Translations under genes and position numbers: made by a program
NCBI GenBank assembly: GCA_020080175.1
Contig: JAGHQL010000032.1
Coordinates: 1-64,000, forward strand
Origin: Glutinoglossum americanum
Taxonomy: Eukaryota > Ascomycota > Geoglossomycetes > Geoglossales > Geoglossaceae
Direction of reading: 5' to 3'
Length of the DNA: 64,000 nucleotides
Notes under the pieces: generated by a model
What the model was told of the DNA's origin: nothing
Seen by the model: only the letters and a program-made list of their open reading frames with translations
Databases searched by the model: none
In this document: positions 1,711-54,667 of the stretch, one piece after another
Layout: each line of letters opens with the position of its first letter
Numbering within the stretch: position 1 is the first letter of the stretch

Positions 1711-3009
1711 CTACATGCGCTCGGCCAGATCACCCCCAGCAACCGACGCTGCGGCCGAGGAGTTTCCGGAAGAAAAGCCGCTGTTGACGTTCAGCAAGTC
1801 GTGTACGGCGACCCTCGGCACAGGGGGGATAGGTAACTTTCTCTGCGCACCGTCAGGCCGACTGATGATTTCACTGAGACGGAGGCCTGACGGCGGTTGT
1901 GGTGGTGCTGCCGGAGTATTCGTGGCGTTGTAAGGGTCGGCGATCTCCATCGGAGCCAATGCGGGCGTATGGCGCAGCGACAAGTGTCGTAAGCCAGGCA
2001 GATGCATACCATAATCGATGTTGTCGCGGGGATACAGACGTGGAGAGTGAGCGGGCGTGGCTAACGGTGTGTGGTCTGGCGTGGGCGAGCAGCTGTCATG
2101 TGAAAATGTTGGGGATGAGGGTGCGGTGGAGATAGGCGAGTTTGGCCGTGACCGCTTGGCTATCCGGTGCGTGTACGGATCGTCGTCCTCGTGCGAATGC
2201 GATCGGGACATCGAGTGTCCGTACGCATACGCGGACAACGACGGCAGGCGGCCGTTGTTGTTGTGGTGGAGGTATGGGTGGTGGTGGATATGGCGGTGAT
2301 GGTGGTGGTATGGGTGCGGCTGAGCGGGCTGGTTCTCTCTCTCCAGTTGCTGCGACGCAGCGGTAGCAAGCATGTTGATATCCATGGGGTTCTGGCCATT
2401 AGGGCTGCCGCCGGATGTCTTCCCGTAGGGCCCAAGAGCCGAAGGTAGTAGACTCGACTGACTCTGGTACGAGTGCGGAGGTGAAACGTTGGGCGACACC
2501 GCCTTGGACGTCGGGGCCGATCGTGAGATGGCCTTCGGCGGCGGAGGCATCATGGAAGACATGGACGAGTCCGACAAGTTGCCGCCAACCACCGCGGTCG
2601 AGGCGGCAGAAGCGGCCTGCTGTGACTTGTTACTCCGTCTCGAGTTGGGATTCGAGTGTATTCGAGAATGACGAGTCAACTCGTCGGATCGACTGAATCG
2701 CTTTGTGCATCCTGGAAATGTGCAGCCATGCGGCTTCTCTCCCGTGTGCGTCCTGATGTGTCTCGTCTGGTGTTCCAGCCGGTGGAAAGCCTTGTCGCAG
2801 AGAGGGCACTTGTAGGGCCTGGGGAGATCTTGTCGCTGATCGTCGGCGCCGTTCTGCGAGCCACCGACGAGCGGCGGTAGGAGACTGACTGCTGCCGTAG
2901 CCATCTGGGGTCGACGCTCTGCCGTGTCGAGATAAGACGACGGCCTCGACTGCGCGGGTGGTTGGTGGAGCAGGTTTGCAAAGTCCGTAGCAGCGGGTGC
3001 TTTGTGCAT
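1711..3009 (-). CDS. creA: Carbon catabolite repressor CreA/Cre1, C2H2 zinc-finger
   Basis: This intronless gene encodes 432 aa. CreA (Mig1-like) is the nuclear DNA-binding repressor that shuts down alternative-carbon and hydrolase genes when glucose is present, through SYGGRG sites. Two adjacent C2H2 fingers are visible. Finger 1 has C68, C71, H84 and H88; finger 2 has C96, C101, H114 and H118. They are joined by the linker HTGEKPHG and followed by the family signature NPNSRRSNK. The region around residues 235-255 is rich in histidine. Further on come Ser/Pro-rich stretches with SPTPDHTP-like phosphorylatable motifs, and near the end [17 protein letters not shown], which resembles the repression region of the family. 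The start is the first ATG of the frame. Length and lack of introns fit Aspergillus and Trichoderma CreA/Cre1. The upstream region is unusually long and full of minisatellites. Confidence 0.97.
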
Positions 3010-3068
3010 ATGACGGCCGCCGCAACGATAGAGGGGCAGGAGTTAATGAGATTAGATTTGAGCGGTGG

Positions 3069-3125
3069 GCAGTAGAGGTGGCAGTAGAGGCGGCAGTAGA
3101 GGTAGCAGTAGAGGTAGCAGTAGTT
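3069..3125. repeat. 12-bp minisatellite upstream of creA
   Basis: A unit of the form GCAGTAGAGGTA is repeated about 4.5 times with one or two changes per copy. It lies 60-116 bp upstream of the creA start codon, within the probable leader or promoter. Confidence 0.85.
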
Positions 3126-3379
3126 GCGAACGTAGCAAGTGCGTGCGTGCGTGCGTGTGCGAGTGTAGCTCACGATGGAGTTGGTCGGAGCAGGCTACGA
3201 AGGGTGCGGGCGACGGGGGGATCTGGGTATTGTATGGTTGGGGTTGGGTGTGGTGGAGTGTGATGTGTCAGGGCGTGGGATGCGGGATGCGGTGTTATAA
3301 AAGTCGGAGCCCCGAGCCAGCGTAGTCGGTTTGATAGGGGCGGGTAAGGGTGTGTGTGTGGGCTTGGGCTTAGCTAGGA

Positions 3380-3411
3380 GCAGGCCAGCAGGCTAGCAGG
3401 CCAGTGGGCTA
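3380..3411. repeat. 8-bp minisatellite (GCAGGCCA type)
   Basis: Four consecutive 8-bp units alternate between GCAGGCCA and GCAGGCTA, the last one diverged. It is one of several arrays in the creA 5' flank with a period of 8. Confidence 0.75.
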
Positions 3412-3756
3412 GCGGTGGGCCAGGCGTCGGCGCGGGCTTGGAGAAACAGTCAAGGCGAGCAGAGGAAAAACAAAAACCAGAATCTGGCGCCGGCACAAGC
3501 GAGGTCACTCTCCGTCAGGTGGGAAGAGATCGACCGGGAAGTTTGTTGATGCGCGATGCGGGATGCAAAAGCCTCGCCGTAAAGGGCAACCCGCACGTGG
3601 GGAGAGGCGGAGATGGCAGCAAGGAGAGCAGGCGGGAGCAGAGCAGAGAGCAGAGGGCAGAGGGCACAGCGGACCGTGTATGTAGCTGTATATGTACGTA
3701 CGTCGCACTGTGGGATTCTGCGTGGTATTTTTGTGCGCGCCGAGAGCTGGACTGGG

Positions 3757-3820
3757 ACGCTGGAACGCTGGAACGCTGGAACGCTGGGATGCTGGGACGC
3801 TGGGGCGCTGGGACGCCGGA
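3757..3820. repeat. 8-bp minisatellite (ACGCTGGA type), 8 copies
   Basis: Eight head-to-tail 8-bp units are visible: three identical ACGCTGGA copies, then single-base variants ending in GGG, then ACGCCGGA. It is the clearest array in the creA upstream region. Confidence 0.9.
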
Positions 3821-4821
3821 ACAGGTACTCGTCGGAGGGAGCGAGGAGAGGCGCAGGAGTGGTGCGTCTGGGAAATACGACTCGACAAAAATAAAATAGA
3901 GACAGAGGGACCCGATGCCGCTGGCACGATGCAGAGGCCGAGTCGAGAGAGAGAGATGGCGAAAAGAAAGCAAACTGCGCGGGGGGCGCTAAGGTTCTTT
4001 TTATTCTTCTGGCCGTCTCCACGCCAGCTGGTTGCCGGATGGGATTGACTGGCTGGGACTGGGGCGGGGGACTGGGGTCGTCGTGGGCAACTGGCTGGGC
4101 GAGACTGAAACTTTTTCGCCCGGCGGATGAGCGAGTGCGTTGTGTGGTGAGTTGGTTTTGGTTTTTCTCCCGACGTCAACGAACCGGGCGCGAAAAGCTA
4201 AAACACGCAGCGCGCAGCTAGAAAAGGGATCGCCGTCGAGCGTCGAAGGGTTCGAAGCGCTTGGAAGGTGTGGAGAGTGGAGCCAGGGAGGAGAGAGCCC
4301 AGAATAACCAGGGAGGCCCGGAGGAGCTGGATGCGAGCTATCCGTTGGGGGTTGGGGTTGGCTTGCTGTTGGGGGGGGGGTGGGTTAAGTGGAACGAAGT
4401 TCCGGGGTCGGAGAGACACTCCCGGGGAGGCAAAGTATGTGTACGTAGTGCGCGGGTATGGGTCGATTATGTGTGAAGATGCGAGAGGAGGCCTGATGTA
4501 GCATAGGACAAATCCGCAGGAGTCCGGGGAATGCAAGGTTGGGTCCTAGGTTTCGGAAAGGGGGATCTCCCAACGAGGGAGGGGGAGGGCGACGTGGGTT
4601 TTTTATCTTTTTTATCTACGGAGAGCGTGTCTGACAACAGACCGACGCTCCGGGAGGGGAGGTGAGAAAAAAAGCGGAGGTGGCAGGATCGTGGAGTTGG
4701 AATATATGACCCGCGGCGATTCCGTAGCCACGCTGGGGCGCACATGTGTAGTAAGTAGCATTTGAAGATCGGGTAGAAATGGGGGCAGTTTTTGGGAGGC
4801 AACCAGAGGTTGGGCGAAATG

Positions 4822-4860
4822 CGAGCAAGCACGCAAGCACGCAAGCACACAAGCACGCAG
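4822..4860. repeat. 8-bp minisatellite (GCAAGCAC type)
   Basis: About five tandem copies of GCAAGCAC with small changes, again with a period of 8 bp. Confidence 0.8.
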
Positions 4861-5760
4861 AGCAACGGGAGAGCGAGAAGGCGCGTTACTATTACTACGA
4901 ATGTGCGCCGACAGATAGCCGTGCAGCAAAAACACATTCACGCCGAGCAGCGCGAGAGATAGCCCTGTAAACAGCGAGGGGGTGGGAAGGAGAGAAAAAG
5001 GTAGCGAACCGAAGGCTGCCAAAACGATCAGGAATTTGGGGGGGGGGAGGGTTGGGGTTGGGTGGGTGCGAGTGGCGTGTGGGATGGGGGCGACGGAGGT
5101 GTTCCATATCCAGGAAGAGGGAAAAGCCGAGGGCTGAATGGGAAAAATAAAAAATAAAAAAAAAGAGGAAGGTAGAGAGAGAGGGGAATATAAAAAAAAA
5201 AGAAATAAGCCTGGAGAGGCAGGTTGGTTCAAGCGTCCTCGCATGCGGAATGAGAAGTGGTGGAGGAGAGAGAGGGAGGGAGAAGAAACGTGGTGTGTTG
5301 ACGATGGGGGATTTACCCGTTTTCCCCTTGTATCCCAACCTAGTCCTAGTCCCTTGCAAACCCCACCGACTCTCTCCCACACCGGCTGCGCATTAGGCAG
5401 GGCGACGAATCAACCCGGGGGCCCCGAAGAGGAGAAGAGAAAAAGAAAAAAAGGGCAAGAGTTGAGCACACACGAACCTTTTATTTATTTATTCATTTAT
5501 TATCCTTCACATCTCCATTTTCACTTTCATTTTCTTTCTTTTTTTTTTCCAAGGCGGTTTCTCTCTTTCACACGAAAAACGAACAAACCAAAAAAAAAAA
5601 TAATACACTCTTCCTCTCTCGAACAGAAGGCAAAAAAAATAAATAAATAAAAGATAAAAATAAAATAAATAGACGACCGTCCTATCTCCCCTCCTTCGCC
5701 GCTTACAAAATATATCATTACCATCTTCGTCTCCCACACCCCCCGACGACCCCGGACAAG

Positions 5761-5812
5761 AAAAAAAAAGAAAAAGAAAAAAGAAAAAAAAGAAAAAAGA
5801 AAAAACAAAACC
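5761..5812. repeat. A-rich purine tract
   Basis: About 50 nt of uninterrupted A with scattered G on the plus strand. Similar T-rich tracts follow at 5980-6010 and 6170-6190. Confidence 0.85.
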
Positions 5813-6189
5813 ACCCGGCAGGTGCGTTTTGGCATTCTTTTCCAGGCGTCCGGGTCCATCTACCCACCCATCTTGGCCGGCCGGTCTGTCGGTCGGCCGG
5901 TGGCTGCGCAAGGGTGCGTTATGTTGGTGAGATAGCGTCGGTGCGGTGCGTGCGTGCGTGTGGGGGGGGGGGTTGGCCCTTTTTTTTTATTTTTTTTATT
6001 TTATTTTTTGTTTTATGGAGAGGTGTGAGTAGGCTTTGCTTACGGGGGGGGGCCGTGGCTAATGGCAGTAAGCTAGATCTTCCCAGGTGGGAGACCGGGG
6101 GGGGGGGCACGGTGTGGGGTTTTGGTTTTCTTTGGTCCCGGGATTATTTTTTTTAATTGTTATTTCCTTTTTTCCTTTTTTTTTTTTTT

Positions 6190-27227: not shown

Positions 27228-30200
27228 TCACTTCAAGTCCGCCGGGGTCAGAGCCTGAACAACGCTGGTACCCTCACTAAATCGAGTCCTGAAAATACGG
27301 TTTGCATTCTGGAACATTCCATCTTTCAAACTGACAACAATAAACTGGGAGCCTTTGAAGCGGGTCTTGATTAGTCGGCCGATATTCTGTGTGTGGGAAA
27401 GATCCAGCGCTGCATCGACTTCATCAAGGATGTACATGGGCGCAGGCTTGAATTGGAGGAGAGCCATTATTAACGAAAGGGCAATAAGCGACCTGTGAAT
27501 TAAAAGGTTATGATCAGATTAGACGTCTCGAACCTTTAGTACTGGGAGTGTATACCGTTGGCCACCACTCAATTCTGTCAGACTCTGCTTCCACACCTTG
27601 CCCAGGGAGACCTTGACTTCCAGTCCAGCAGTGATCTCCTTCCCTTCCAGAGGATCTAGCTTAGCAAAGCTGCCTGGTAATAACTCCGCGAAGATTTGAC
27701 CGAAATCCCCATTTACTTTCTGCCAAGTCTTCTGTAGTGCCTCCTTCTTGTATTCATCAAGGTTGGTTATCGTCTCCTCAATCTTTCTCTTATCCCTGAT
27801 TACAGTCTTCATCATGTTCTTCAGTGCGATTTCCTTCTTCTCCACACTATCGATCATGTTCATGACTTTCGGATTAATCCTTTTCTTCATACCCTGAGAT
27901 CGTTCTGTCAGGTTACGGAGTGAAGATTTACATTCCGTGATGTTCTGGCCGTTGAAATCGTATGGCGTTCCAGGGCGACCAAAGCTATCCTTGTTGTCCT
28001 CGATCCACTCGTGCTCCTTCTCCATATGTGCAACCATCTGCGCTGCGGATTGCTGCTCTTTATGTAACTTTTCAATCTGGTGACCGAGCCTCTGCATCTC
28101 AAGACCATCCTCAGTGATTTGTGAGGCCTTAGATCTTGAAGCTTCCTCTAAAGCATGAAGTTCATCGTCGAAACCACTCAGTTTGGATTTTTCGTCCTCG
28201 AGACGTGCTTGGGCGATATCAAGGGCATCCTACTCTCTCTTCAGCAAGTACATTCGGAGAGATCCTAACTGGTTCCACCAACCTTGATTTGGGTCTGCTC
28301 TTGCTTCAGTGCCTGGACTTCCTCTTCCTGTGCCCTCAGCGTAGAGTCCGCTTCCTCGAGTTGCTCTCGCGTAGCAGATAAGTCTGCCGCAGCTTGCTCT
28401 ATAGATTATCAGCCCTTCCAATATCTAAATTCTCATGACGATCTCCTACCAGACTCTAACTGTGCCCCTTGGAGCTCCTTCTGCACTGCCTTCACGGATA
28501 CCGAATTCTTGCCTAGCGTTTTCCTTAGTGAGTCTAGGGATTTCTGAGGAACATTAGCAAAGATTCTGGGTGGGCATATGTTATCCACAAACCTGTAATT
28601 CAGCAAGCTTGCCGTCCTTGTTGTTATCGAAGTCCTTCATTTCCCGCTCTATACGCTTGATATCTTTCATCGCCTCGTCCTGCCGAGTCTTTGCACTCAT
28701 GGTATCATTCTTTAGCTGGATTATATTCTCTTTCATCTCCCTAACTGCTTGGATGATCTATTGTCTGTCAGTATGTATCTACCTTTTGGGGGAAACCGGC
28801 TACACACGGTTGAAGAAGAATTGCTGTTTATTTGTTCTTCCGTGAGCTTAAGTTCATGCGTTTTCAAATCGAGCTCTTGTTTCAGCGTCCGGGCTTGATC
28901 CATATTTTTCTTCTCTCTCGCCATAAGCGATTGTAATTCAACAAGGGAGTTCTCTTGACGAGTCAATTCTTTGGTGAGCTCATTTAACTTCTGCAATGTA
29001 ACCAGAACCCCGCTTGAATTTGTTGAGCTTCCGCCAGACAGAGTGCCAGCAGGATCATACACGTCACCTTCAAGAGTGACGCTTTTGACACGAACTGCTG
29101 GGTCGAAAGTCACGCTCTTAGCTGTCTCGGCATCTGCGCAAATTAAGGTAGATCCGAATACGTAGTCCATAGCGGCAGAGACCTCGTCCTCATAGCCGAT
29201 CAGAGATAGTGCAAGGTCAACCTTGCCAGGGGCGATCCTTTGGGCAGCACCAATTCTCTAACATCGTGTTAGCAAAGGTTACCATGACTGGATATTCTAA
29301 AAGTACCTCTGCAGCAACCCGCAGTGCAGCAATCTTGTTTAATGGAATAATCGTGACTCTCTTTTTCAGCTTTCCATTCTGCAAGAGCTGGGTGCCAGTC
29401 ACCTCAGAATCAACAACCACGTTGTAAAGGCGGCCGCCGGCGCAGATTTCTAGCGCAACCCCAGCATGTGCCTTATCCCTATCCAAGGTAAACAGCTGAG
29501 CTACCAGTCCTTTCACTTTGGAACGATCAAATCTTGGGGATGGATCGCTGTAACTGAAGTCGATATTGGCAACTTTCCGCTTTTGACCGTCAGCCTGTTC
29601 GCGAAGTCCCCTTATCCGCTGTTGTAAAGAGGCTTCCTGCTTGTACATATCTTCTTCTCTCCCTGGCTCAAAGCCTAGCTTACTAAGTTCAGATTCTAGC
29701 TTCCTTGACCGAGAGCGAAGTCCATCCAAGTCCTTAAGTAATCCGGAATTCTGCTCCTTTGCTTTTTTGGCTCGGGGCTCTTCCTCCTTTATTCGCTTTT
29801 CAAGGTGTGTGATTCTGAGCTTAGCTTGTTCCTGCTCGGTGGTAGCAGCACTAACGCGGTTTCTCGCGTCTGATGGTTATTAGTACAGGCTTCTGCAGAT
29901 CCACCAACTAGCCCTTACCTTGTAGCTGTCCTTGGTAGCCACTCTCTTGGCCCTCTTTCGAAGCTACACCAGTGAGTAGTGTCTGAAGCAGTTCCTCCTT
30001 CTTCTCCGCATCTTGAGTTTTCTTCTCTAGCTCCGCTTTGGCGTTGTCATATCGTGACTTCAATTCCTCGAAGAGCACTCTTTTCTCCTTTAATTGGATC
30101 TCGAGTTCTGAGACAGTTCTCTGGACACCATTTCGCTTTTCTTTTTCTTCCTTGATACTTGTCGCTTTTAGGTCAAGGATAGTGGTCAGCCGGACAAGTT

Positions 30201-31186
30201 CGTGCGAGTGAGCTTTGACACCGTCTTCCATGGCTTGGAATTTCCCGCCTTTCCGAAGCTCCTTGTCTTTTTGTGCTTTTGTTCGTTTGATATCCTCTTC
30301 AAGATGGGAAATCTCATTCTTCAGGCGCAACACTGAATCTTCCAGGTCTTTTGCTCGTTGTTTCTTCTGTTCTAGATCGCTCGCCGTCTGCCGGAGCTTG
30401 TCTTTATTCTTTAAGTAGTCATGAGCAACAACCAGTCTTGTGAGTCGCTCGAGATCACTCTGCGTTTGTTGGAACTCCAGGAATATACGCTTCTCCGTCC
30501 TGAGTTTGTCTAGCTTCGGTTCAATCTCTTCTTTTAACAAGTCGTTGATCTCCTGGACCTTCATCTCCTTCTTCGCCATTGTTTTGAGTGCTTTATCCCT
30601 CCGGTCCTCGAACATTCGGGTTCCTGCGGCCTCTTCAATCATCGACAAGATCTCTACCGGCTTCATATTGAGCACCTTAGTGATCCGGCCTTGCATAATG
30701 AGGAAATTGGGATTGTTGATGTTGAGTTGGACAGACTGGAATAGGTTCTGGACCGTCTGCTGTTGAGCCCGATGCCCATTAATAAGATACTTACTCGTGC
30801 CGCCGAGGACAATTTGTCGAGTAACCTGTATTTGCGCATATTCTTCGAACCCAATAGGGCTCTTCTTTTTATCGTGATTATCAAAGACAATTGTCACGCT
30901 AGCTTTCGTGACCCCCGCTTGCCCCCGCTTGTAAATGAGGTCCTAACGATCTGAATTAGCCAAGTAGGTCTATCGGCCATCAGCATAGAAGACTCACTTG
31001 GAGATTCTGAGCTCTGACTGTGCTCATATTCGTTATTCCCAGGACGAAACATATTGAATCAAGCATGTTGGACTTCCCGCTACCATTTAGTCCCGTAATT
31101 GAGTTAAAACTTTCGTCCCACCCAGAAATCACGGTTCGTACAGCATATGACTTGAAGCCGTCAATGATCACTTCAACGATCCTCAT
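27228..31186 (-). CDS. smc2: Condensin subunit SMC2
   Basis: Nine exons on the minus strand: 31186-30998, 30942-29919, 29869-29307, 29257-28808, 28757-28593, 28543-28450, 28398-28283, 28229-27556 and 27492-27228. They encode 1179 aa, the usual length. SMC2 pairs with SMC4 in condensin, an ATP-driven loop-extruding machine that compacts mitotic chromosomes. The N-terminal ATPase half has Walker [10 protein letters not shown] (32-40) and [17 protein letters not shown]. Long coiled coils flank a hinge that contains [11 protein letters not shown] and [14 protein letters not shown]. The C-terminal half has the signature LSGGQR (1087-1092), split by the last intron, and Walker B YILDEVD (1112-1118). 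The seven introns other than the last (63 nt) are 49-55 nt. All phases agree. An ACGCG box lies 49 bp upstream of the start codon. Confidence 0.98.
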
Positions 31187-31239: not shown

Positions 31240-31465
31240 ATCGATGTTTGTTTACATCGTTGCGACCAGGGAGTCGGGATCTTCCGTGATGACCAATCGT
31301 CAACACGTGACAACATCTAAACATCTAGTTCCAGAGATAAGCCCATCTACAAATATGATTACCATTTAAATTGCGGGCACAAGAGATGCAAAGAATTCCA
31401 ACACTAATGTGGTGGTTGGGCTCGACGGGTGTGGCTCCTGATAGTCCTAATAACGCACTTCGGAC

Positions 31466-31770
31466 GTAGGCCTACAAATCATGTTAACATACCATATATC
31501 TCACCATTTCATAGCATAATATCCTCCGGATGCTAAAAATGGTAGGGTACAATGTGCCCTATCGTTTTTCATGTGTAGGCTTATAAATCACGTTAATATA
31601 CCATATATCCTACCATTTTGTAGCATAATATCCTCTAGATGGAGAAAATGATAGGGTACAATGTACCCTATCGTTTTTCATACATAGGCCTACAAATCAT
31701 GTTAACATGCCATATATCCTACCATTTCGTAGCATATCCTCTGGATGCAAAAAATGATAGGGCACAATGG
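31466..31770. repeat. 109-bp palindrome-rich tandem repeat, about 2.8 copies
   Basis: Copies start at 31466, 31575 and 31684, so the period is exactly 109 bp, with the third copy cut short. Each unit holds two inverted repeats. One has arms ACCATTT..TAGCA and TGCTA..AAATGGT. The other is an almost perfect hairpin, in copy 2 GATAGGGTAC-AAT-GTACCCTATC in two arms of ten. Each unit begins near TAGGCCTA, itself a palindrome in copies 1 and 3. Substitutions between copies are scattered and the third copy also has a small deletion. Confidence 0.9.
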
Positions 31771-31922
31771 ATCGTGCTGCCCAGCATCTTGACCAGTCGC
31801 GCTGCAGCCATTAGTGCTCGAGACGGACGGAAGCACTGTGGTTTCGTAGCTCTATACAATATAGGAACATTCGAGAATATATATACTGTTCTTGACGGCT
31901 ATGTGAACCATTCTCAACGTTT

Positions 31923-32051
31923 CTCATCCGCTAGACCCGTCAAGAGATAAACAGTGAGAGATAGACCAATGCATGAACGAAACACCTCTCATCCGTTAGG
32001 CCCACCAAGAGATAAACAGTGACAGATAGACCAATGCATGAGCGAAACGCC
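31923..32051. repeat. 65-bp tandem duplication
   Basis: Two adjacent copies of a 65-bp unit start at 31923 and 31988 with CTCATCCG. They share GAGATAAACAGTGA and GATAGACCAATGCATGA, with about eight differences. The array lies 128 bp from the CHIP stop codon. Confidence 0.9.
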
Positions 32052-34388: not shown

Positions 34389-35216
34389 TCACAAATCCAT
34401 TTCATCGCCATTCTCAACTGGATCATATGCATCATCTCCTTCCTCAACTTCCCTCTCCCGAAGAGCCTGTTCCCGAGATGTACCGATCTTCCTGTTGATA
34501 AGTGTCAGCATACACATACTACACACGAGCTCTCCGCCAAGTGTCTAAACCTACCTCAACCCATCCACTACTCCTGAAATGAAAGCTCTGCCCTCACCGA
34601 CTTCCATTCCCCCTACCCCCTTTAACCCGACCATCCCACTACCATCTAATACGACCACACCAGCTCTTATCTTTGCCATTCTTATCTCTCGAAGGTCCCG
34701 CATTAGCCGCCTCACTGTGTCTGGATCAACCACGTCATCCGGTGCCGCATCGAGCAATATCTCCCCCAGCTCCAGCCAATGGTACGGAAGCGCTCCATCC
34801 GGGGCATCGGCCGTTGACGAGAGCAAAAAGGGCGGGCTTGTGGTAGCCTCTCCAGTGGCAGGAGGCGGGAGAGGGGGCGGTGGAGAGAATTGATCCGTTT
34901 TATTTCTTTCGATGTCCAGAATCGATGTTAGGGCGGTAGGATGGAACCATGGGGGGGGAAGAATATTTGCGCGGCGTTGGCGCTTGAGGAGGAGAGCTAA
35001 CCAGAGAGGCAAAGAGGCTCGATGCGGTGGGTGGAGAGGCACTGTTGGTCCCTGGGATAATAGGCCTCAGCAACTTCCAAGTCTCTTTCGGGCCCAACTC
35101 ACCCCTAGAAGTTCGAGGCCTTCAAGACGCTGTCTTGGCACAACAGTAACCATCTCCATCTCACAAATAAAGGCAATTTCTGGTGGGGTCAAACCTGGGG
35201 GTGAGGGTAGAGCCAT
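34389..35216 (-). CDS. psf2: GINS complex subunit PSF2
   Basis: Three exons, 35216-35103, 35051-34555 and 34491-34389, give 237 aa. PSF2 is one of four GINS subunits; with Cdc45 and MCM2-7 it forms the replicative helicase. Conserved features are [17 protein letters not shown] at the N-terminus, [42 protein letters not shown] and [20 protein letters not shown] fungus-type acidic tail ([20 protein letters not shown]) is encoded by the last exon, so the protein does not stop at the TAG that follows GVVDGLR in the unspliced frame. It is head to head with ALG10, with only 173 bp between the two start codons. Confidence 0.95.
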
Positions 35217-35389: not shown

Positions 35390-37386
35390 ATGGCTCGGCA
35401 AATCTCATTCCCGATTATTGCCGGCAGTCTGCTCATTGTTGTGGGAGGTATATGGCTTCAACAAGTCAGCCTAAACGTGCCGGAACCATATCTTGTGCGT
35501 GCAAGCCAACAATACTAGATGCGCTATCGTATTGGCATTTAACAATACTAACAGTCGATTGCTCATGCCCTAGGACGAAGTATTCCACGTTCCCCAAGCC
35601 CAGGCATACTGTAAGGGGAAATGGCACATATGGGACCCAAAGATTACCACCCCCCCGGGCTTGTAAACTTCTCTCTCATAATTATCTTGCTCTCCTGGCT
35701 AACTCCCAGCAGGTATCTCTTCTCTCCAGTTCTACAATCGATAACGAAATATTTCGATATCTCCAGTTGCGAAACCTTCACCCTTCGCCTGCAAAACTGC
35801 ATCGCTGTGATAGTCGCAATCCCAGTAGCAACATGCAGTATACATAAATTACTACAATCCCAAGCCAAGAAGGCTGAGAGGCCCCCAACGGATATCTCGA
35901 GTGAAGACTCGATTCGCGCTTTCAACTTCGCAGTGCACACCGCTCTCAACATAGCCCTCTTCCCCCCGCTCTTCTTCTTCTCTGCATTATACTACACCGA
36001 ACCGTGGTCAATTTTTTGGGTTCTCCTCGCTCACCCGATTTTCTCCTCGGGCAAGAGTAGTGTGAAATCGAAGCGTAGTCTAGGACATTCTCTACTACTT
36101 AATTCAATTTTCGTCGTTCAGGGAATCGTGGCTCTTCTTTACAGACAGACAAACATCTTCTGGATCGTTGTGTTCTATGGGGGACTCGATGCCGTTCAGA
36201 TCCTAGAAACTAAAGCAATTCAACTAGCGACATTGAAAGCGAAAGACCAGACATATCGGGATATTATGGTTAGGGGTTGGAAATCCGGTTATATATACGA
36301 CCTACCAGTTAACAACGCATGGCTTCAAGGTGGGTCTATGAGGCTACACTAGGGGCAATAGGCTTTGGTCTAACTTGATTCTAGACTACTTCAAGACCAG
36401 TATTTCACTACTTTTCGCAGCCTTGGGTAGCATTAATGTTGTCCTGTCAGCACTAACTCCACATCTCGCCCTGCTGATAGCATTCGGGGCATTTACCATA
36501 TGGAATGGGGGTGTCGTCCTCGGTAAGTCTGCATTTTCCTCTTCTTTTAAGTTAGTCGATGCTTTGCTAGTCGTCTTTCTGATATGGTACACCATTAGGC
36601 GATAAGTCGAACCATGTCGCATCTTTACATTTGTCGCAGATGCTCTACATCTGGCCCTATTTCATGTTCTTCTCATTTCCTGCTGTTTACCCCTACTTGA
36701 TCAACGCATTTTCCCCAGGAACACTCCGTCGATTCCCGAGATTAAACAACAAGTACACCCGAGATCACCCACGACTAAGCGTTGCGTTTATATTTACTGG
36801 GCTCATGCTTTGCATTGTCCGTTTCAACACAATAGTGCATCCCTTCCTACTCGCTGACAATCGGCACTATGTCTTTTACGTCTTCCGGTGGGTCCTCTTG
36901 CGCCATCCGGCCGCGAAATACCTTGTTGTTCCGATTTATTTCGTTTGTGGATGGGCTATCATCATAGCCTTAGGTGGGACTCAGAGGTCCACCAGCATAC
37001 AAACGAAACCTCCCAAGGGAAAGAACAATGGCAGAGATGACTTAGCTACTACTCGGGCAAATAGAGTCAGTTTCGTGATAGTCTGGCTCACAGCCACAGC
37101 ACTATCTCTGGTTACAGCTCCTCTTGTTGAGCCACGCTACTTTATCTTACCGTGGATGATGTGGAGACTCTACCTACCAAACTCCCTTTTCACAATTGAA
37201 AAGGCGAGGTCCCATTCTGGGTCCCATTCCTATCTTAGAAAATTCTTTGATTGCAGATTCAGCAGCCAGTTATGGCTTGAGACAGTCTGGTTTCTGTTTG
37301 TCAACTCTTTCACAATGTATCTCTTTCTCTATCGCGGGTTCAAGTGGCCCCAGGAACCTGGAAATGTTCAGAGATTCATGTGGTAA
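35390..37386 (+). CDS. alg10: Dol-P-Glc alpha-1,2-glucosyltransferase ALG10 (DIE2)
   Basis: Five exons, 35390-35494, 35574-35662, 35713-36329, 36385-36522 and 36599-37386, give 578 aa. ALG10 adds the last glucose to the lipid-linked oligosaccharide in the ER lumen, which makes the donor optimal for N-glycosylation. The N-terminus has a signal-anchor segment then [18 protein letters not shown], with the conserved luminal acidic [22 protein letters not shown] is rebuilt across intron 2. About a dozen hydrophobic segments follow, with [40 protein letters not shown] and [14 protein letters not shown], and the family ending VQRFMW. Length and motif order fit the family. Confidence 0.95.
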
Positions 37387-48640: not shown

Positions 48641-51600
48641 TCAGATCTCTCTGCACCACTTGGTCATGACGGCACCCAGGCTAGGCATGCTCTGCCAGAT
48701 TTCCTCTAAACCAACATCGACCCGAAACATCCGGCCCATCCTGCCAACATCTCTCGTCCCATTGCCACCAGCGACCCCGCCAAGTGCGGGGATAATAAGG
48801 TTATACTCCGCCAGCCGCTCCCAAGCTCCTAGGCCGACTTCTCTCCCCCAAATCTTCGACCCAGCGCCGACAGCAGACGCACCAGAAGCCGAAGACTGTA
48901 ATTTTACTCGAGAAGCGAGCGTTGTGTATTCATCGTAGGACATATTGAAGTTGCAGGTATCGGTGTCGAGGATGATGTCCAAACGGGCGGCGGCGATAAG
49001 CAGGGACAGCTCCAAGTCGCTCAGACCCTCTAGGATGTGGAGCTTTGACTCTGGAGGGGCTAGAGTGTTATCAATGAAGTCTTGGCCCTTGAGGTAGAGG
49101 GATTGAGGCGACAGATCGAAAATGGGGAGCAGGCATGCTACGTGAAAGTCCTTAACCCCTTTTGTTGTGTAGAATATTGACTGCAGTAGGTGTTTGAAGT
49201 CGGTATCGTTTCCTAGACCCTGCGAAGCGAGACAGTGTAAGTAAGCCTCGATGCGCCAACATAGTTTACAGGAGATGGGGATCTACGGCATACCTCGACC
49301 ACACTATTCCAAATCTGTAAAACCCCCTCCTGATCTAGTATCAAAGCCGCTTCTTCCTCTGCAGTTTGGATATCGTCTTTGTCGACCAGTAATGCCTGCT
49401 TACATATCTCCCAAAAAGCCCCGAGGCTCCTTGGTAGACCCAAATGGACATGTCGGTGACTGAAGCGGCTCTTTACTCTCTTCTCTAAGCTCTCGACGAC
49501 GTCGATTTTGGTAGTGAGGCCTAATACCAATATGGGTGCTTTGCGACCTTGAGCGACGTCGAAGAGATTATAGAGGAGAGTCTGCCTAGGATGGGAAGCG
49601 AACAGGTCAAACTCGCTGAGGATGAAAATCACAGACTTTGCCGTGTGGTTTGGGGCACTCTCTGATAATTCAGATGGGTGGGATAGAAGAGCTAGTAGGG
49701 ACGATAGTATATCCGCGTAGTTGCTGGCCTACGACAAGTCAATACTAGAGTCCTTAAAGATTAGAGTGAATGCGATCGTACCTTGCCGATTAGCTCATCT
49801 TCGATCTCCATCTCTACGCCCAATTGTCTCCATATCTCTCGTAGAGCCAGTCTGTCATCAGTGTGAATGAACCCATTTAGCCGGACAGTGTGGAAGTCTT
49901 CTCCGTGCTCAGTGGAGACCTTTGAGATAACCTTTTCAACCAGCTGCACAAGGGTTAGTATATTAGTTGGAGTTCTGCAATCACCAAAACCATACCGTAG
50001 ACTTTCCGCTACCTCTCGACCCAATGACCAACATAGAGTTCCCTTCTCCTGCCACCACTGTTTGCTCTAAGACTTGACGGACCTTCCCTTGTTCGTCGTC
50101 CAGTCCTACGAGACGGACGGCTCTTTTGCCGGTCAGTTTTTCGAGCAAGACCCTTTTTAACACCTCTACCTGCTGGTTCAAGGCGGGGCCCTGAGGCAAC
50201 TCACGAAGCTGGGCTGCATCAGCTATGGCTAAGTCGTCTTCATAGTCGGATTCGTTAACGTTCTCCGAGTTTTGAGGTATGGAGTGGGATGTCTCGAGGG
50301 GTGGCCAAGATAGAGGAAACCGATCTTTCCGTGGTCTCCCTCGGCCACTTCGGATGGGAGGCGGGTTTGAGCCACCAGGACCGCTATAGTCCTCGTTGTG
50401 GGTGATATTCGAGTCTGTATGCTCGGTGGCAGCGGTTTCCCCAACATCCTCTCTGAGAATATCCTTGAATCCCAACGCTCTGCCAACTTCAATCTGCTCA
50501 TTACCTTCAAAATTGACAGTCTTCCGCGGTCTCCCACGCCGCCTTGGGGGCGTCATAATTCCAACCAATTGATTCTCCGATGCGAGAGTGTTGTGGATGA
50601 CGGGTCTTCGGATTGTCTGACGCTCTTCAGAATGAGCAACCATATGTGAAGGATGTTGTTCCTCTCTTAAAGCAGGGGATTTATTCTCTTGAGTTGGGGC
50701 CGTTGGACTCTCGCTTTCGGGAAGGGAGACCTTTCTCGGTCTTCCACGTCCGCGCTTCGTTGGTGTTTCTTCAGATATAGGACGTTCCACAAACTCTAGC
50801 ATCTCCCCGTTCATAGTCAGAGAGGGAAAGCTGCTTTCGCTCTGGTTGGCCGAAGCCTTCCGTGGCCGTCCACGTTTTCGCTTCGTTGGTGTCTCTCCAT
50901 CTGCATCTGGCACAGACAGCTTTACTAGTGTCCCTGAAGCATGTACAGAATCAGGATCCACACTTCGACTACCACCAACGATACCACTCTCATTCCCTGA
51001 GTGTCCATTTAGGTGCGAAGTATTAACGTTGGTGATAGATTTGCGTGGTCTACCACGCTTTCTCTTAGTTGCTGAAACCCCTTGTGGATCTAAATGCTGC
51101 ATCCAGTCTCCGGGCGACATCGTGCCCACGGGTTCATCTTCTTCAGCATCTAGCAAGTCCATTGCTGATGGTCCATCCCCTATGTGTTCATTGCGATTCG
51201 GGCCACCGTTTTTCGTAGTTCTTGGTTCCCGCGGCCGGTCCCGTTGTCTTGCCCGTGTTATTATAATAGTATCACCCAGTTCGTCCGCAGAATACCGCAC
51301 CGTTTTCAACCGGCTCTCCAAACTAGACTGTCCGTTGGTCTTGCCAGTCTGACCAAGGGCAAGGAGTTCATCTTGAAAGCGATCTCCCACTGATAAATCC
51401 CACACTTCCTTTAGACCAGCCGTGACCGTACCATTCTCTTGACTAGCTTCTGCAGAGTGCCCTCCATCGCTGCGCCCGGTAAACGTCGGCCGGCTAGCGG
51501 GGGTGATGGACGATACCGCCGCATTTCTTAGCGCTTCCAATACCTTTGGGGTAGAGGATGAAGAGCTAAAATCGTCACCGATCCTTCGGCGTTTAACGGC

Positions 51601-51666
51601 CTCTCCTAGTACTGCAGTATTCTTTGGGGGTCGGCCACGCTTTCGAGAAGGAACTGCTTCAGACAT
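48641..51666 (-). CDS. orc4: Origin recognition complex subunit 4 with N-terminal AT-hooks
   Basis: Four exons, 51666-49996, 49943-49782, 49728-49294 and 49219-48641, give 948 aa, much longer than Orc4 of animals or budding yeast (roughly 430-530 aa). Orc4 is an AAA+ subunit of ORC, which marks replication origins and loads MCM. Residues 1-480 are a low-complexity extension with six AT-hook cores GRP flanked by basic residues, near 11, 206, 267, 308, 378 and 443. The AAA+ part starts near 490: Walker [10 protein letters not shown] (549-557), then [20 protein letters not shown], the Walker B position reading FILSEFDLF (Asp replaced by Ser compared with the human ILDEFD), and [16 protein letters not shown]. 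The C-terminal winged-helix half ends [12 protein letters not shown]. An ACGCG box lies about 135 bp upstream, next to a tRNA gene. Confidence 0.95.
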
Positions 51667-51800
51667 TGGGTGGATTCACCCATACAATGTCTAATGTTAA
51701 GCTGTCCTTACCACTCGAACATTAGCGACAGAATATTGCTGAGTAATTAATCACGTGCATGCTCGATCAATTTTGAAATTGCAATTGTGCGAGTTTAGAG

Positions 51801-51805
51801 CGCGT
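51801..51805 (-). promoter_or_regulatory. ACGCG (MCB/E2F-like) box before ORC4
   Basis: On the minus strand this reads AAAACGCGCT, 135 bp upstream of the ORC4 ATG. It is also only 13 bp before the tRNA gene on the other strand. Candidate cell-cycle box by consensus only. Confidence 0.35.
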
Positions 51806-51817
51806 TTTGACATACCC

Positions 51818-51942
51818 GGTCGTATGGCGCAATTGGTTAGCGCGTGGTGAATACCCCCGTATTTTGTAGTGAATTCATCAACTAATTGGTCTGGTAGGTG
51901 CTAATAACGCCAAGGCTGTGGGTTCGAGTCCCACTATGACCA
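51818..51942 (+). tRNA. tRNA-Ile (anticodon AAU) with a 51-nt non-canonical insert
   Basis: Removing 51847-51897 leaves a complete 74-nt tRNA including the discriminator base. The acceptor stem GGTCGTA pairs with TATGACC (one G-T). The D arm is GCGC/GCGC, the anticodon stem TGGTG pairs with CGCCA, the loop is CTAATAA with anticodon AAT, and the T stem GTGGG pairs with CCCAC around TTCGAGT. Discriminator base A is at 51942. The A box TGGCGCAATTGG (51825-51836) and B box GGTTCGAGTCC fit Pol III consensus, and a T7 run follows at 51951. The insert lies on the 5' side of the anticodon, whereas nuclear tRNA introns lie one base 3' of it. Anticodon AAU would read Ile codons after deamination to IAU. 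Confidence 0.9.
51847..51897 (+). other. 51-nt GT..AG insert in the tRNA anticodon arm
   Basis: The insert starts GTGAAT and ends TGGTAG. A CTAAT motif, matching the fungal branch consensus CTRAY, sits 12 nt before its end. Because GGTG occurs at both borders, the true edges may shift by up to 3-4 nt, from 51846-51896 to 51850-51900. The GT..AG register is one of these choices. The 51-nt length matches the mRNA introns in this window (49-55 nt is common). For none of the five registers could I form the 4-bp central helix of a bulge-helix-bulge motif. Confidence 0.75.
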
Positions 51943-51950
51943 TTCATTAA

Positions 51951-51957
51951 TTTTTTT
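51951..51957 (+). terminator. Pol III T-run terminator of the tRNA
   Basis: Seven T on the plus strand, 9 nt after the tRNA discriminator base, the usual Pol III stop signal. Confidence 0.85.
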
Positions 51958-52263
51958 GTCGCCGTTTTTTGGTTGAAATAATTACTTAAATACTACATAC
52001 AAACACCACAGTTAATACGCGAAAACACTAAGCAGGCAATGGATGAGATAGAGAGATCCCGCGGAGGCTGCGGTATCCGATTAACAATTAATGCTCGACG
52101 CATCTCGCACCGCCAAATGTAGAACCATCTCTGACTGAAATAGAGGGTTTAAATAAAGGTCTTTGCTTTTCCTACTAATAAGACAATAAGGAAAAATCGG
52201 GAAGCTTAGGGAAATGGGTACAGGCCGAACCGCAGCAAAACGAGCCGGAATCCAAACTTTGAT
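51958..52263. other. Intergenic tRNA / PDI-like gene
   Basis: About 300 bp of ordinary sequence holding the 3' UTR of the minus-strand PDI-like gene. Nothing else was recognised. Confidence 0.5.
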
Positions 52264-54667
52264 CTAATCTACCTTTCCGCTCGGGTTCCCACCTCCAAGT
52301 AAGCCATCCTTCCCATCTATTTTAAAGAAGCCGCCCCCTGGGCCCCCAAATCCAGCGAAGCCCTTACCTTTCTTTATTCTGCCTCGGCCCCAGACGCCAC
52401 CGCCAAAGGCACCTATTAAGAGCCCTAGAGTAAGGAAAGGGTGGCTATATGCTGCGCCACGGACTTCAAAAAAGAGGTTCTCCATACGAGATATTGTGGA
52501 TTTTGGTTTGATCTTTGGAGGTGAGATGATAACTTTTGGGATCGTCTCGAGAATGGCGGTGCGAGAGGCGCCGATATAGCTGCCAGATATGGTGGTATCC
52601 CAGTACCGCTTATTCTGTACTTCGGTTAGTTATTTATCCCGCCGATACTACCAAAGAGGGAACGAAAATAAGCTTACATCTTCGTCATTGATGACAACTC
52701 TCTCTCCATTCTTCACCTCAACTCCATAAGTGGTCCGAATCCATCGCTCCCAAAACACACCATCCACCCAGGCAAAACCAACCTCCCTCCTATCAGAGCC
52801 GTCCATGCTGATACGCATGCTCTTCGCGGATCTTAAAGCTCTCTGGTCGCCTCGATCCTCAGCTTCTTCTATCCTTAGCTGTTTGGCATCCCGCAATTCC
52901 TGCCGTTCTAACTGGAATGCTGTGGCCTGCTTGTCCATCCAGTCAAGTGCCGCTTGTTTAATCTCACGCTTGCCTGCAGCGAATTCTGCTGGTCGGGCAG
53001 GCGAAAGGATTCCGAGAACAACTAGTTTGCCATCCATGATCTCACGGGAATTGGAAGCGGTGAGTTCAGGAACGAGCGGAAGCCAAACGGATTTCATCCA
53101 GGAAAGGACTTTTCGGAAGTCTCGCATGTCTTTAGGAGCAAGGGCCTCGTATTCTGTAGGTCTTCCATCCCTTGAAACTACAAGTCGAGGCCAGGTAGTT
53201 ATTTTGAACTTGTCGGCAAGAATGGCGCTGTCGGTCTTGACAAGGACTGCATGACCGATCAAGCTCAATGTTAGACGCTCTAAAGCGGCAAAATCCTCAC
53301 TAGTCGTCGCATGGTCATAGAAGTAGATAAAGATAACCTCCTCCTTTTCCTCCAGCTCCTTGAATGCAGCTGCATCGACGTATTTCACGCCATCCCCAAG
53401 GTCGACAGCTTTTTGGGCAAAGTTGACAAAATCGCCCAATCCTCGAAGACCATCGTACTCAATTCGTTCCCCGCCTTTGAAGTAAAGAATGGTGGGGTAT
53501 CCCCGTAGTCGAACATCCTTACAGAGCCTAGACTCAAGATCACAATTGACTTCCCCGATGTTAAGTCTTCCCTTCATTTCTCTTCCAAGCTCGTCCCAAA
53601 CTGGCGCCATGGCTCTACAGTGATGACACCAAGGAGCGTAAAACTTGACAAACCATGGGTCTTGCGTCGTTGTAACTCTATCCTGGAAGCCCTCAGCTGT
53701 GAGCGGTTCAGAAGTACCCAGAGGATTTGGAGTTCGTATGGGACTGCTGGGCTTCTTGATCACTTGAGTCGCCTTCGTATCAGCTACCGCGGTCGCCTTA
53801 GTCTCACTGGCAGCAGCAGCAGCCTGTGCCACTTGTTCGTTATGTTTGGTGCCTGCCGCTATACCCCCTGCGGCGTTCTTGTCCTTTGCCGCAGGAACGT
53901 CCGGTTTCGCCGCAGTGTCCACCTCCTTAGCACCCACTTCTGGCAGTCTGACACCATCTTTAGGTCTCGAACCTGGCTTTATTGATTCAAGGATTTCCTC
54001 AACGAAGGCACTAAGCTCTGCAAGCGTTTTCACGCCTTCGAGAGACTTGACAAGTTCACCATTCTTGAATAGTACGAAAGTTGGGTATCTCTGAACGCTG
54101 TGGGTTTCACAAGCGGAACCGTATGCGATACAGTCGAGGTTAGCAAAATGGAAATTATAGTAAGGATGGAACGAGTTGAGAGAAGATTGCCGTTCCGAAG
54201 GCGGTGAGGAGGGGAGAGGATTCGACGTCTACATACATGGTTAACATGACAGAGGCACGGACATGGGACTAGAAAGCATACAAAATAGAATTCATAGAGG
54301 GTCTGCCAAGTTGGAGCTGCTGCTAGACAGTGATGACAGTATGGTGAGTACATTTTTACGAACCTAGAGTAAAGCTGTCAGCGTTTAATGGTCAACGGTG
54401 AGCCTTCGCCTCGAGAGATCCTGAGGCGGCATCACTTCATGACAGAGGATCTTGATCTCACCAGAATCCATCTTTTACCGATGCCTCGAAGGTATCCCCG
54501 GTCAGCTCCCGCAATGGAGGGACTTCCATGCTATTAAAATACGTAGGTCGTAATTCCTCAAGCTGTGATATATCTGACTCGGTTTCATTCTGTGACGAAG
54601 AAAGAGCGGGGGATAGTAAAGAGAGCGCGAGCAGCGCAGTCGACAGGATTGAGCGCATCGTTAGCAT
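52264..54667 (-). CDS. ER membrane thioredoxin/PDI-like protein with two CHHC sites
   Basis: Four exons, 54667-54462, 54363-54282, 54228-52678 and 52614-52264, give 729 aa. It resembles fungal membrane-bound disulfide isomerases (Eps1/TMX type) that oxidise or reshuffle disulfides in the ER. The N-terminus is a signal peptide (MLTMRSILSTALLALSLLSP). Thioredoxin domain 1 has SPYCHHC (CxxC at 78-81), rebuilt across intron 1, and RYPTFVLFKNGE. An Ala/Lys/Thr-rich linker of about 80 residues follows. Domain 2 has APWCHHC (297-300) and RGYPTILYFKGGERIEYDG. A thioredoxin-like region without CxxC comes next. Near the C-terminus, residues about 672-688 form a membrane segment, followed by a basic, glycine-rich cytosolic tail without HDEL. 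ATG 54658 is an alternative start. It is divergent from the NDUFA5-type gene. Confidence 0.9.

Follow-up and report, generated by a model that had tools for sequence, protein, structure and literature searches.

The window, that is, the whole 64-kb stretch of DNA analysed here, is nuclear DNA of an ascomycete. At 51818-51942 on the + strand it carries a sequence from which a complete 74-nt tRNA-Ile(AAU) is obtained only when 51 nt within the 5' strand of its anticodon stem are left out. The locus is situated between ORC4 (- strand, start codon near 51667) and the end of a PDI-like gene, which is also on the - strand. Genes of the window include SMC2, the PDI-like protein, dihydroorotate dehydrogenase, ALG10, NDUFA5, an RGS/DEP protein and a desaturase that carries cytochrome b5 in the manner of OLE1. 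Two further proteins, an ORC4 bearing AT hooks and a Rab GDI, were recognised by eye, Pfam exceeding its cut-off for the AT hooks alone. The first 224 residues of SMC2 matched the solved chains 6qj1_A (428.7 bits), 6yvd_C (372.4) and 9f5w_A (307.1), which we take to be from Chaetomium, budding yeast and human, respectively; this makes Pezizomycotina the probable group. No relative of the PDI-like protein was found in viral contigs.

Several further observations concern the window. The N-terminal half of the ORC4-like protein (49200-51667, - strand) bears several AT-hook motifs (KRGRPRK type) and in this respect resembles fission yeast Orc4. The region 2001-6000 is GC-rich and G-skewed and contains several short tandem repeats. 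Upstream of SMC2, a 109-bp unit is present in 2.8 tandem copies at 31464-31769, accompanied by a 65-bp array at 31922-32048. The features of the locus itself are as follows; the A box and B box were assigned from what we take to be their consensus.

51818 to 51846, + strand: tRNA-Ile(AAU) exon 1, comprising the acceptor 5' strand, D arm and nt 26-28 (ARAGORN with introns, cloverleaf; numbering by hand)
51825 to 51836, + strand: A box TGGCGCAATTGG, internal Pol III promoter (pattern match)
51847 to 51897, + strand: 51-nt insert (GTGAAT...TAG), which in the GT-AG register separates tRNA nt 28 from nt 29 (sequence; intron model score 18.5)
51862 to 51865, + strand: TTTT run within the insert that might act as a weak stop for Pol III (sequence)
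51880 to 51886, + strand: AACTAAT resembling a branch site, with its putative branch A at 51885, 12 nt upstream of the final base of the insert (intron model)
51898 to 51942, + strand: tRNA exon 2, comprising the rest of the anticodon stem, anticodon AAT, variable loop, T arm, acceptor 3' strand and A73 (ARAGORN, cloverleaf)
51921 to 51931, + strand: B box GGTTCGAGTCC (pattern match)
51951 to 51957, + strand: T7 run, likely Pol III terminator (sequence)

Intactness of the split tRNA gene

The split tRNA-Ile(AAU) gene is confirmed as real. With its intron option, ARAGORN returned one gene in the window, a tRNA-Ile(AAT) at 51818-51942 with a 51-nt insert, and without that option it returned no tRNA across the 64 kb. 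The Rfam tRNA model remained below its gathering score at the locus; under a lax threshold it reached 19.5 bits versus 29, with the 5' end misplaced. It can be observed that the joined exons (29 + 45 nt) form a 74-nt cloverleaf with stems of 7, 4, 5 and 5 pairs, in which two of the 21 pairs are G-U and T33, A73 and the GG of the D loop are all present. Once the insert is removed, the locus thus shows the cloverleaf, both internal promoter boxes and the Pol III terminator expected for a tRNA gene of the nucleus. The sequence-only reading had described a tRNA that becomes complete only after a 51-nt removal, with stems, both boxes and a Pol III T-run intact, and this description is borne out by the ARAGORN call, the 21 pairs, TGGCGCAATTGG, GGTTCGAGTCC and the T7 run.

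Folding energies are less straightforward. The joined RNA has a minimum-energy fold other than the cloverleaf (-29.6 vs -26.6 kcal/mol). Furthermore, when the unspliced RNA uses the second GGTG copy, a cloverleaf-like fold is possible at -25.7 kcal/mol, compared with -26.6 kcal/mol for the spliced cloverleaf, which counts against removal by the spliceosome. An unusually stable precursor fold was considered and rejected, the precursor being no more stable than its shuffles (z = -0.66; 49/200 shuffles at least as stable).

The probability that so strict a tRNA arose by chance is small. A one-strand search requiring 21 pairs, T33, TTCRA, GG in the D loop and an insert of 0-89 nt in the anticodon 5' strand matched the real window at 51818-51942 alone and none of 60 shuffled windows. 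Likewise, none of 100 shuffles contained an A box and a B box 20-120 nt apart on one strand. ARAGORN made 11 calls on 200 Markov shuffles of the window; two of these carried inserts of no more than 100 nt (78 and 92 nt), one carried none, and the remaining eight carried inserts of 194-1151 nt.

Relatives were also sought by pattern. Exact matches to the intron-bearing tRNA were absent from viral contigs and from bacterial and archaeal contigs, where little was expected, and the intronless pattern had no exact match in viral contigs. A 23-base exon 1 pattern was found in at least 119 stretches of bacterial and archaeal contigs and in one stretch of viral contigs, and all 80 of the listed bacterial and archaeal contigs had bacterial names. 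Among the 120 matches listed, from at least 120 loci, 114 were tRNA-His (15 with an adjoining tRNA-Gln), one was tRNA-Pro and five had no ARAGORN call; a tRNA search of the record with the tRNA-Pro contributed nothing further. These loci were rejected as relatives, being tRNAs with a common D arm. The stretch shared by bacterial tRNA-His and the fungal tRNA-Ile, up to an A/G difference, is a likeness of the D arm.

Anatomy of the insert and its likeness to local mRNA introns

The motif GGTG is located at both edges of the insert, and five cut registers, from 51846-51896 to 51850-51900, consequently yield the same tRNA. The ambiguity within GGTG had been anticipated by the sequence-only reading. 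Only 51847-51897 has GT..AG ends, and it places the insert at 28/29, away from the canonical tRNA intron position of 37/38; by hand count on the cloverleaf, the registers as a whole span 27/28 to 31/32. The non-canonical position, the GT..AG ends, the CTAAT with its A 12 nt before the last intron base and the 51-nt length are thus as originally described. Three other arrangements were tried and rejected. By eye, an intron at 37/38 would leave exon 1 without the anticodon, and an anticodon directly 3' of the first GGTG would have no T33. Origin of the insert by tandem duplication of a piece of the tRNA (AATTGGT at 51831 and 51884) was discarded, a local alignment score of 7 being reached in 422/2000 shuffles.

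For comparison, a set of 16 mRNA introns was drawn from eight of the window's genes, each intron with an open frame through 90 nt on either side of the join. The join at 30943-30997 is also spanned by a gap-free alignment to the solved SMC2 chains, while the others are based on frame, splice sites and protein recognition. The intron model consists of position weights for the 5' site, branch site and 3' site. Introns with less certain genes or boundaries were kept outside it, namely ORC4 49729-49781, ALG10 36523-36598 and 34492-34554, together with unresolved gaps in RGS, GDI and NDUFA5 and weaker candidates.

The insert is typical of the window's mRNA introns and has the anatomy of a spliceosomal intron. 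Its length of 51 nt falls among those of the reference set (49-63 nt in 15/16, 92 nt in one), as the sequence-only reading had proposed, and its branch site lies 12 nt from the end, compared with 10-14 nt in 14/16 introns and 18 and 21 nt in the other two. The branch site AACTAAT (8.4 bits) and the 3' site (5.4 bits) resemble those of the organism's own introns. The 5' site scores 4.8 bits, within the local range of 2.6-8.6 (n = 16), but its position +5 is A where G is usual, which counts against it. In total the insert scores 18.5 bits, versus a mean of 17.8 (sd 2.6) for left-out real introns, 8/16 of which score no higher; it should be noted that the reference set was chosen partly by branch motif and thereby favours consensus-like introns. 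The resemblance to local introns extends to length, branch site and 3' site and, less clearly, to the 5' site. A model of the eight SMC2 introns alone weakens the case (insert 13.2 vs 15.2, sd 3.6; 1/8 no higher; 188/9397 null intervals as high). The eight non-SMC2 introns give 19.8 (7/8 no higher; 5/9397 null), and 19 introns, obtained by adding the ORC4, ALG10 and 34492-34554 candidates, change little (18.1; 8/19 no higher; 11/9397 null).

High scores are rare in the window. Among the 431 GT..AG intervals that are exactly 51 nt long, both strands included, only the insert itself and the SMC2 intron 28399-28449 score as high as the insert. These two, in five registers each, also supply all 10 of the 127,700 random-block positions that reach it, so that no other block attains the score. 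When lengths of 45-65 nt are allowed, 11/9403 other GT..AG intervals score as high; among them is 34492-34554, a possible real intron.

A scoring blind to the tRNA was applied to 147 GT..AG candidates of 40-100 nt within 51618-52142, on both strands. Under the 16-intron model, 51847-51897 shared the top score with 51822-51897, whose 5' site lies in the acceptor arm. The site at 51822, which had not been listed previously, is a real competitor, and the leader depends on the model: 51847-51897 and 51822-51897 score 13.2 vs 12.7 with the SMC2 introns, 19.8 vs 20.4 with the other eight and 18.1 vs 17.9 with 19 introns. The 76-nt length of 51822-51897 is unusual among local introns.

Two properties of the insert bear unfavourably on its removal. 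In the minimum-energy fold of the precursor, within 51845-51880, UGGUGAAU at the 5' edge pairs with AUUCAUCA just upstream of the branch site, and the 5' splice site is enclosed in this helix of eight pairs (51845-51852 with 51873-51880; six pairs in the centroid). In addition, the TTTT at 51862-51865, also missing from the sequence-only reading, could in part stop Pol III early. Fungal Pol III usually needs T runs longer than TTTT.

Proposed splicing and competing explanations

Removal of the insert by the spliceosome is the best explanation of these observations, with a probability of roughly 0.6, confidence being limited by the restriction of the case to a single locus of a single species. 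On this explanation, the filamentous ascomycete would have a nuclear gene for tRNA-Ile(AAU) whose anticodon stem is interrupted in its 5' strand, at nt 28/29, by a U2-type intron, 51847-51897. Judging from the boxes, Pol III would transcribe the gene from the A and B boxes to the T7 run. Subsequently, the spliceosome in the nucleus would recognise GTGAAT, the CTAAT branch site and TAG, and 51846 would be joined to 51898, whereby the anticodon stem would presumably regain its five pairs. RNase P, RNase Z and CCA addition, the established finishing pathway of tRNAs, would then complete the molecule. Its gain was probably a late event, through reverse splicing or some other route, as proposed for the intron of fission yeast U6 snRNA. 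The fuller proposition, that this is a working nuclear tRNA dependent on the spliceosome, in which a U2-type intron entered a Pol III gene away from 37/38 and was kept since splicing restores the stem exactly, stands at about even odds.

The main rival is that a spare tRNA-Ile(AAU) copy was disabled by a recent intron-like insertion, is now silent or yields a degraded transcript, and has exons that are still undecayed while intact copies supply the cell. Pezizomycotina are named among the groups with introners in the accessible parts of PMC9860276 and PMC4457414, and short insertions in the D or T arm of eukaryotic tRNA genes, according to the available portion of a tRNA intron review (Yoshihisa 2014, PMC4090602), mostly affect a single gene out of many synonymous ones and are regarded as pseudogenes. 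Against this, the 21 pairs, both boxes and the terminator are intact, and the splice signals of the insert fit a cut that restores the tRNA, so that the gene need not be disabled. A similar element elsewhere in the 64-kb window was not found either, the longest blastn match to the insert being 10 nt. Disablement is judged unlikely, while being the foremost of the alternatives.

Excision by the tRNA splicing endonuclease, or by another nuclease with a ligase, in the manner of the non-canonical tRNA introns of a red alga and of nucleomorphs, is much less probable. The fungal endonuclease cuts at 37/38, whereas this insert is at 28/29. In none of the five registers was a four-pair central helix of an archaeal-type bulge-helix-bulge (BHB) found, even with bulges of 2-4 nt. 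The scan is a weak test of the archaeal type, run without a positive control and leaving aside the looser needs of the fungal endonuclease: 484/500 inserts with shuffled interiors also contained no 3/3 BHB and 315/500 no relaxed one. Such introns do exist in some eukaryotes, and removal of the shortest is described as not understood in the part of PMC4090602 that is available. Endonuclease removal would nonetheless leave the GT..AG ends, the branch site and the length unexplained.

Similarly improbable is the possibility that the tRNA is simply broken and that its intron-like signals arose by chance or stem from a Pol II transcript that runs across the locus: the equal score of 51822-51897 and the 11 in 9403 intervals noted above are compatible with it, but ORC4 and the PDI-like gene, as the neighbours that could be recognised, are encoded on the - strand, the + strand frames near the locus (50693-51352 and 52730-53254) lie opposite these two genes, and a best-scoring interval coincides with one of the five tRNA-restoring cuts.

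Comparison with known systems

A spliceosomal intron in a nuclear tRNA gene was not encountered among the PMC matches listed, a scope outside which most subscription papers fall. In its available part, the tRNA intron review places non-canonical eukaryotic introns in a red alga and in nucleomorphs, regards other insertions mostly as pseudogenes, and contains no word beginning with "spliceosom" (PMC4090602). For tRNAscan-SE 2.0, the accessible text describes the search for non-canonical introns for archaea (PMC8450103). More such genes may sit unannotated because the default tRNA searches used here miss this one.

Canonical nuclear tRNA introns likewise interrupt the anticodon arm of a nuclear tRNA gene. 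They are located at 37/38 and handled by the tRNA endonuclease, whereas this insert is at 28/29 with U2-type splice signals. The introns of Cyanidioschyzon merolae and nucleomorphs are, like the insert, eukaryotic tRNA introns away from 37/38; for C. merolae the BHB is described as critical, in the part of the review at hand (PMC4090602), whereas the insert has no archaeal-type BHB in the weak scan. The introners and introner-like elements of Pezizomycotina similarly represent spliceosomal intron gain, as far as the accessible text of both papers extends (PMC9860276, PMC4457414), and in fungi they have been read as RNA-based in the portion available of the first (PMC9860276). Introners are present as several similar genome copies, while the insert has no second copy within the 64-kb window, and the word tRNA does not occur in the texts of either paper.

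A further close parallel is with U6 snRNA, in which mRNA-type introns are found in other fungi besides fission yeast. The sequence-only reading had pointed to fungal U6 as a precedent for an mRNA-type intron in a Pol III RNA, and rightly so: fission yeast U6, also a short RNA made by Pol III, contains an intron of the spliceosomal type, whose origin is considered to lie in reverse splicing, according to the accessible part of the source (PMC10484740). U6 is a part of the spliceosome, which has been offered as the reason for its insertion site, whereas a tRNA is not and has a splicing system of its own. If the proposed reading is true, a Pol III tRNA precursor can be a substrate of the spliceosome, and the locus provides a clear-cut natural example of a non-coding gene that has gained an intron. 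Introns of tRNAs and of mRNAs are treated as separate worlds with separate machines, and a tRNA that relies on the spliceosome would join them.
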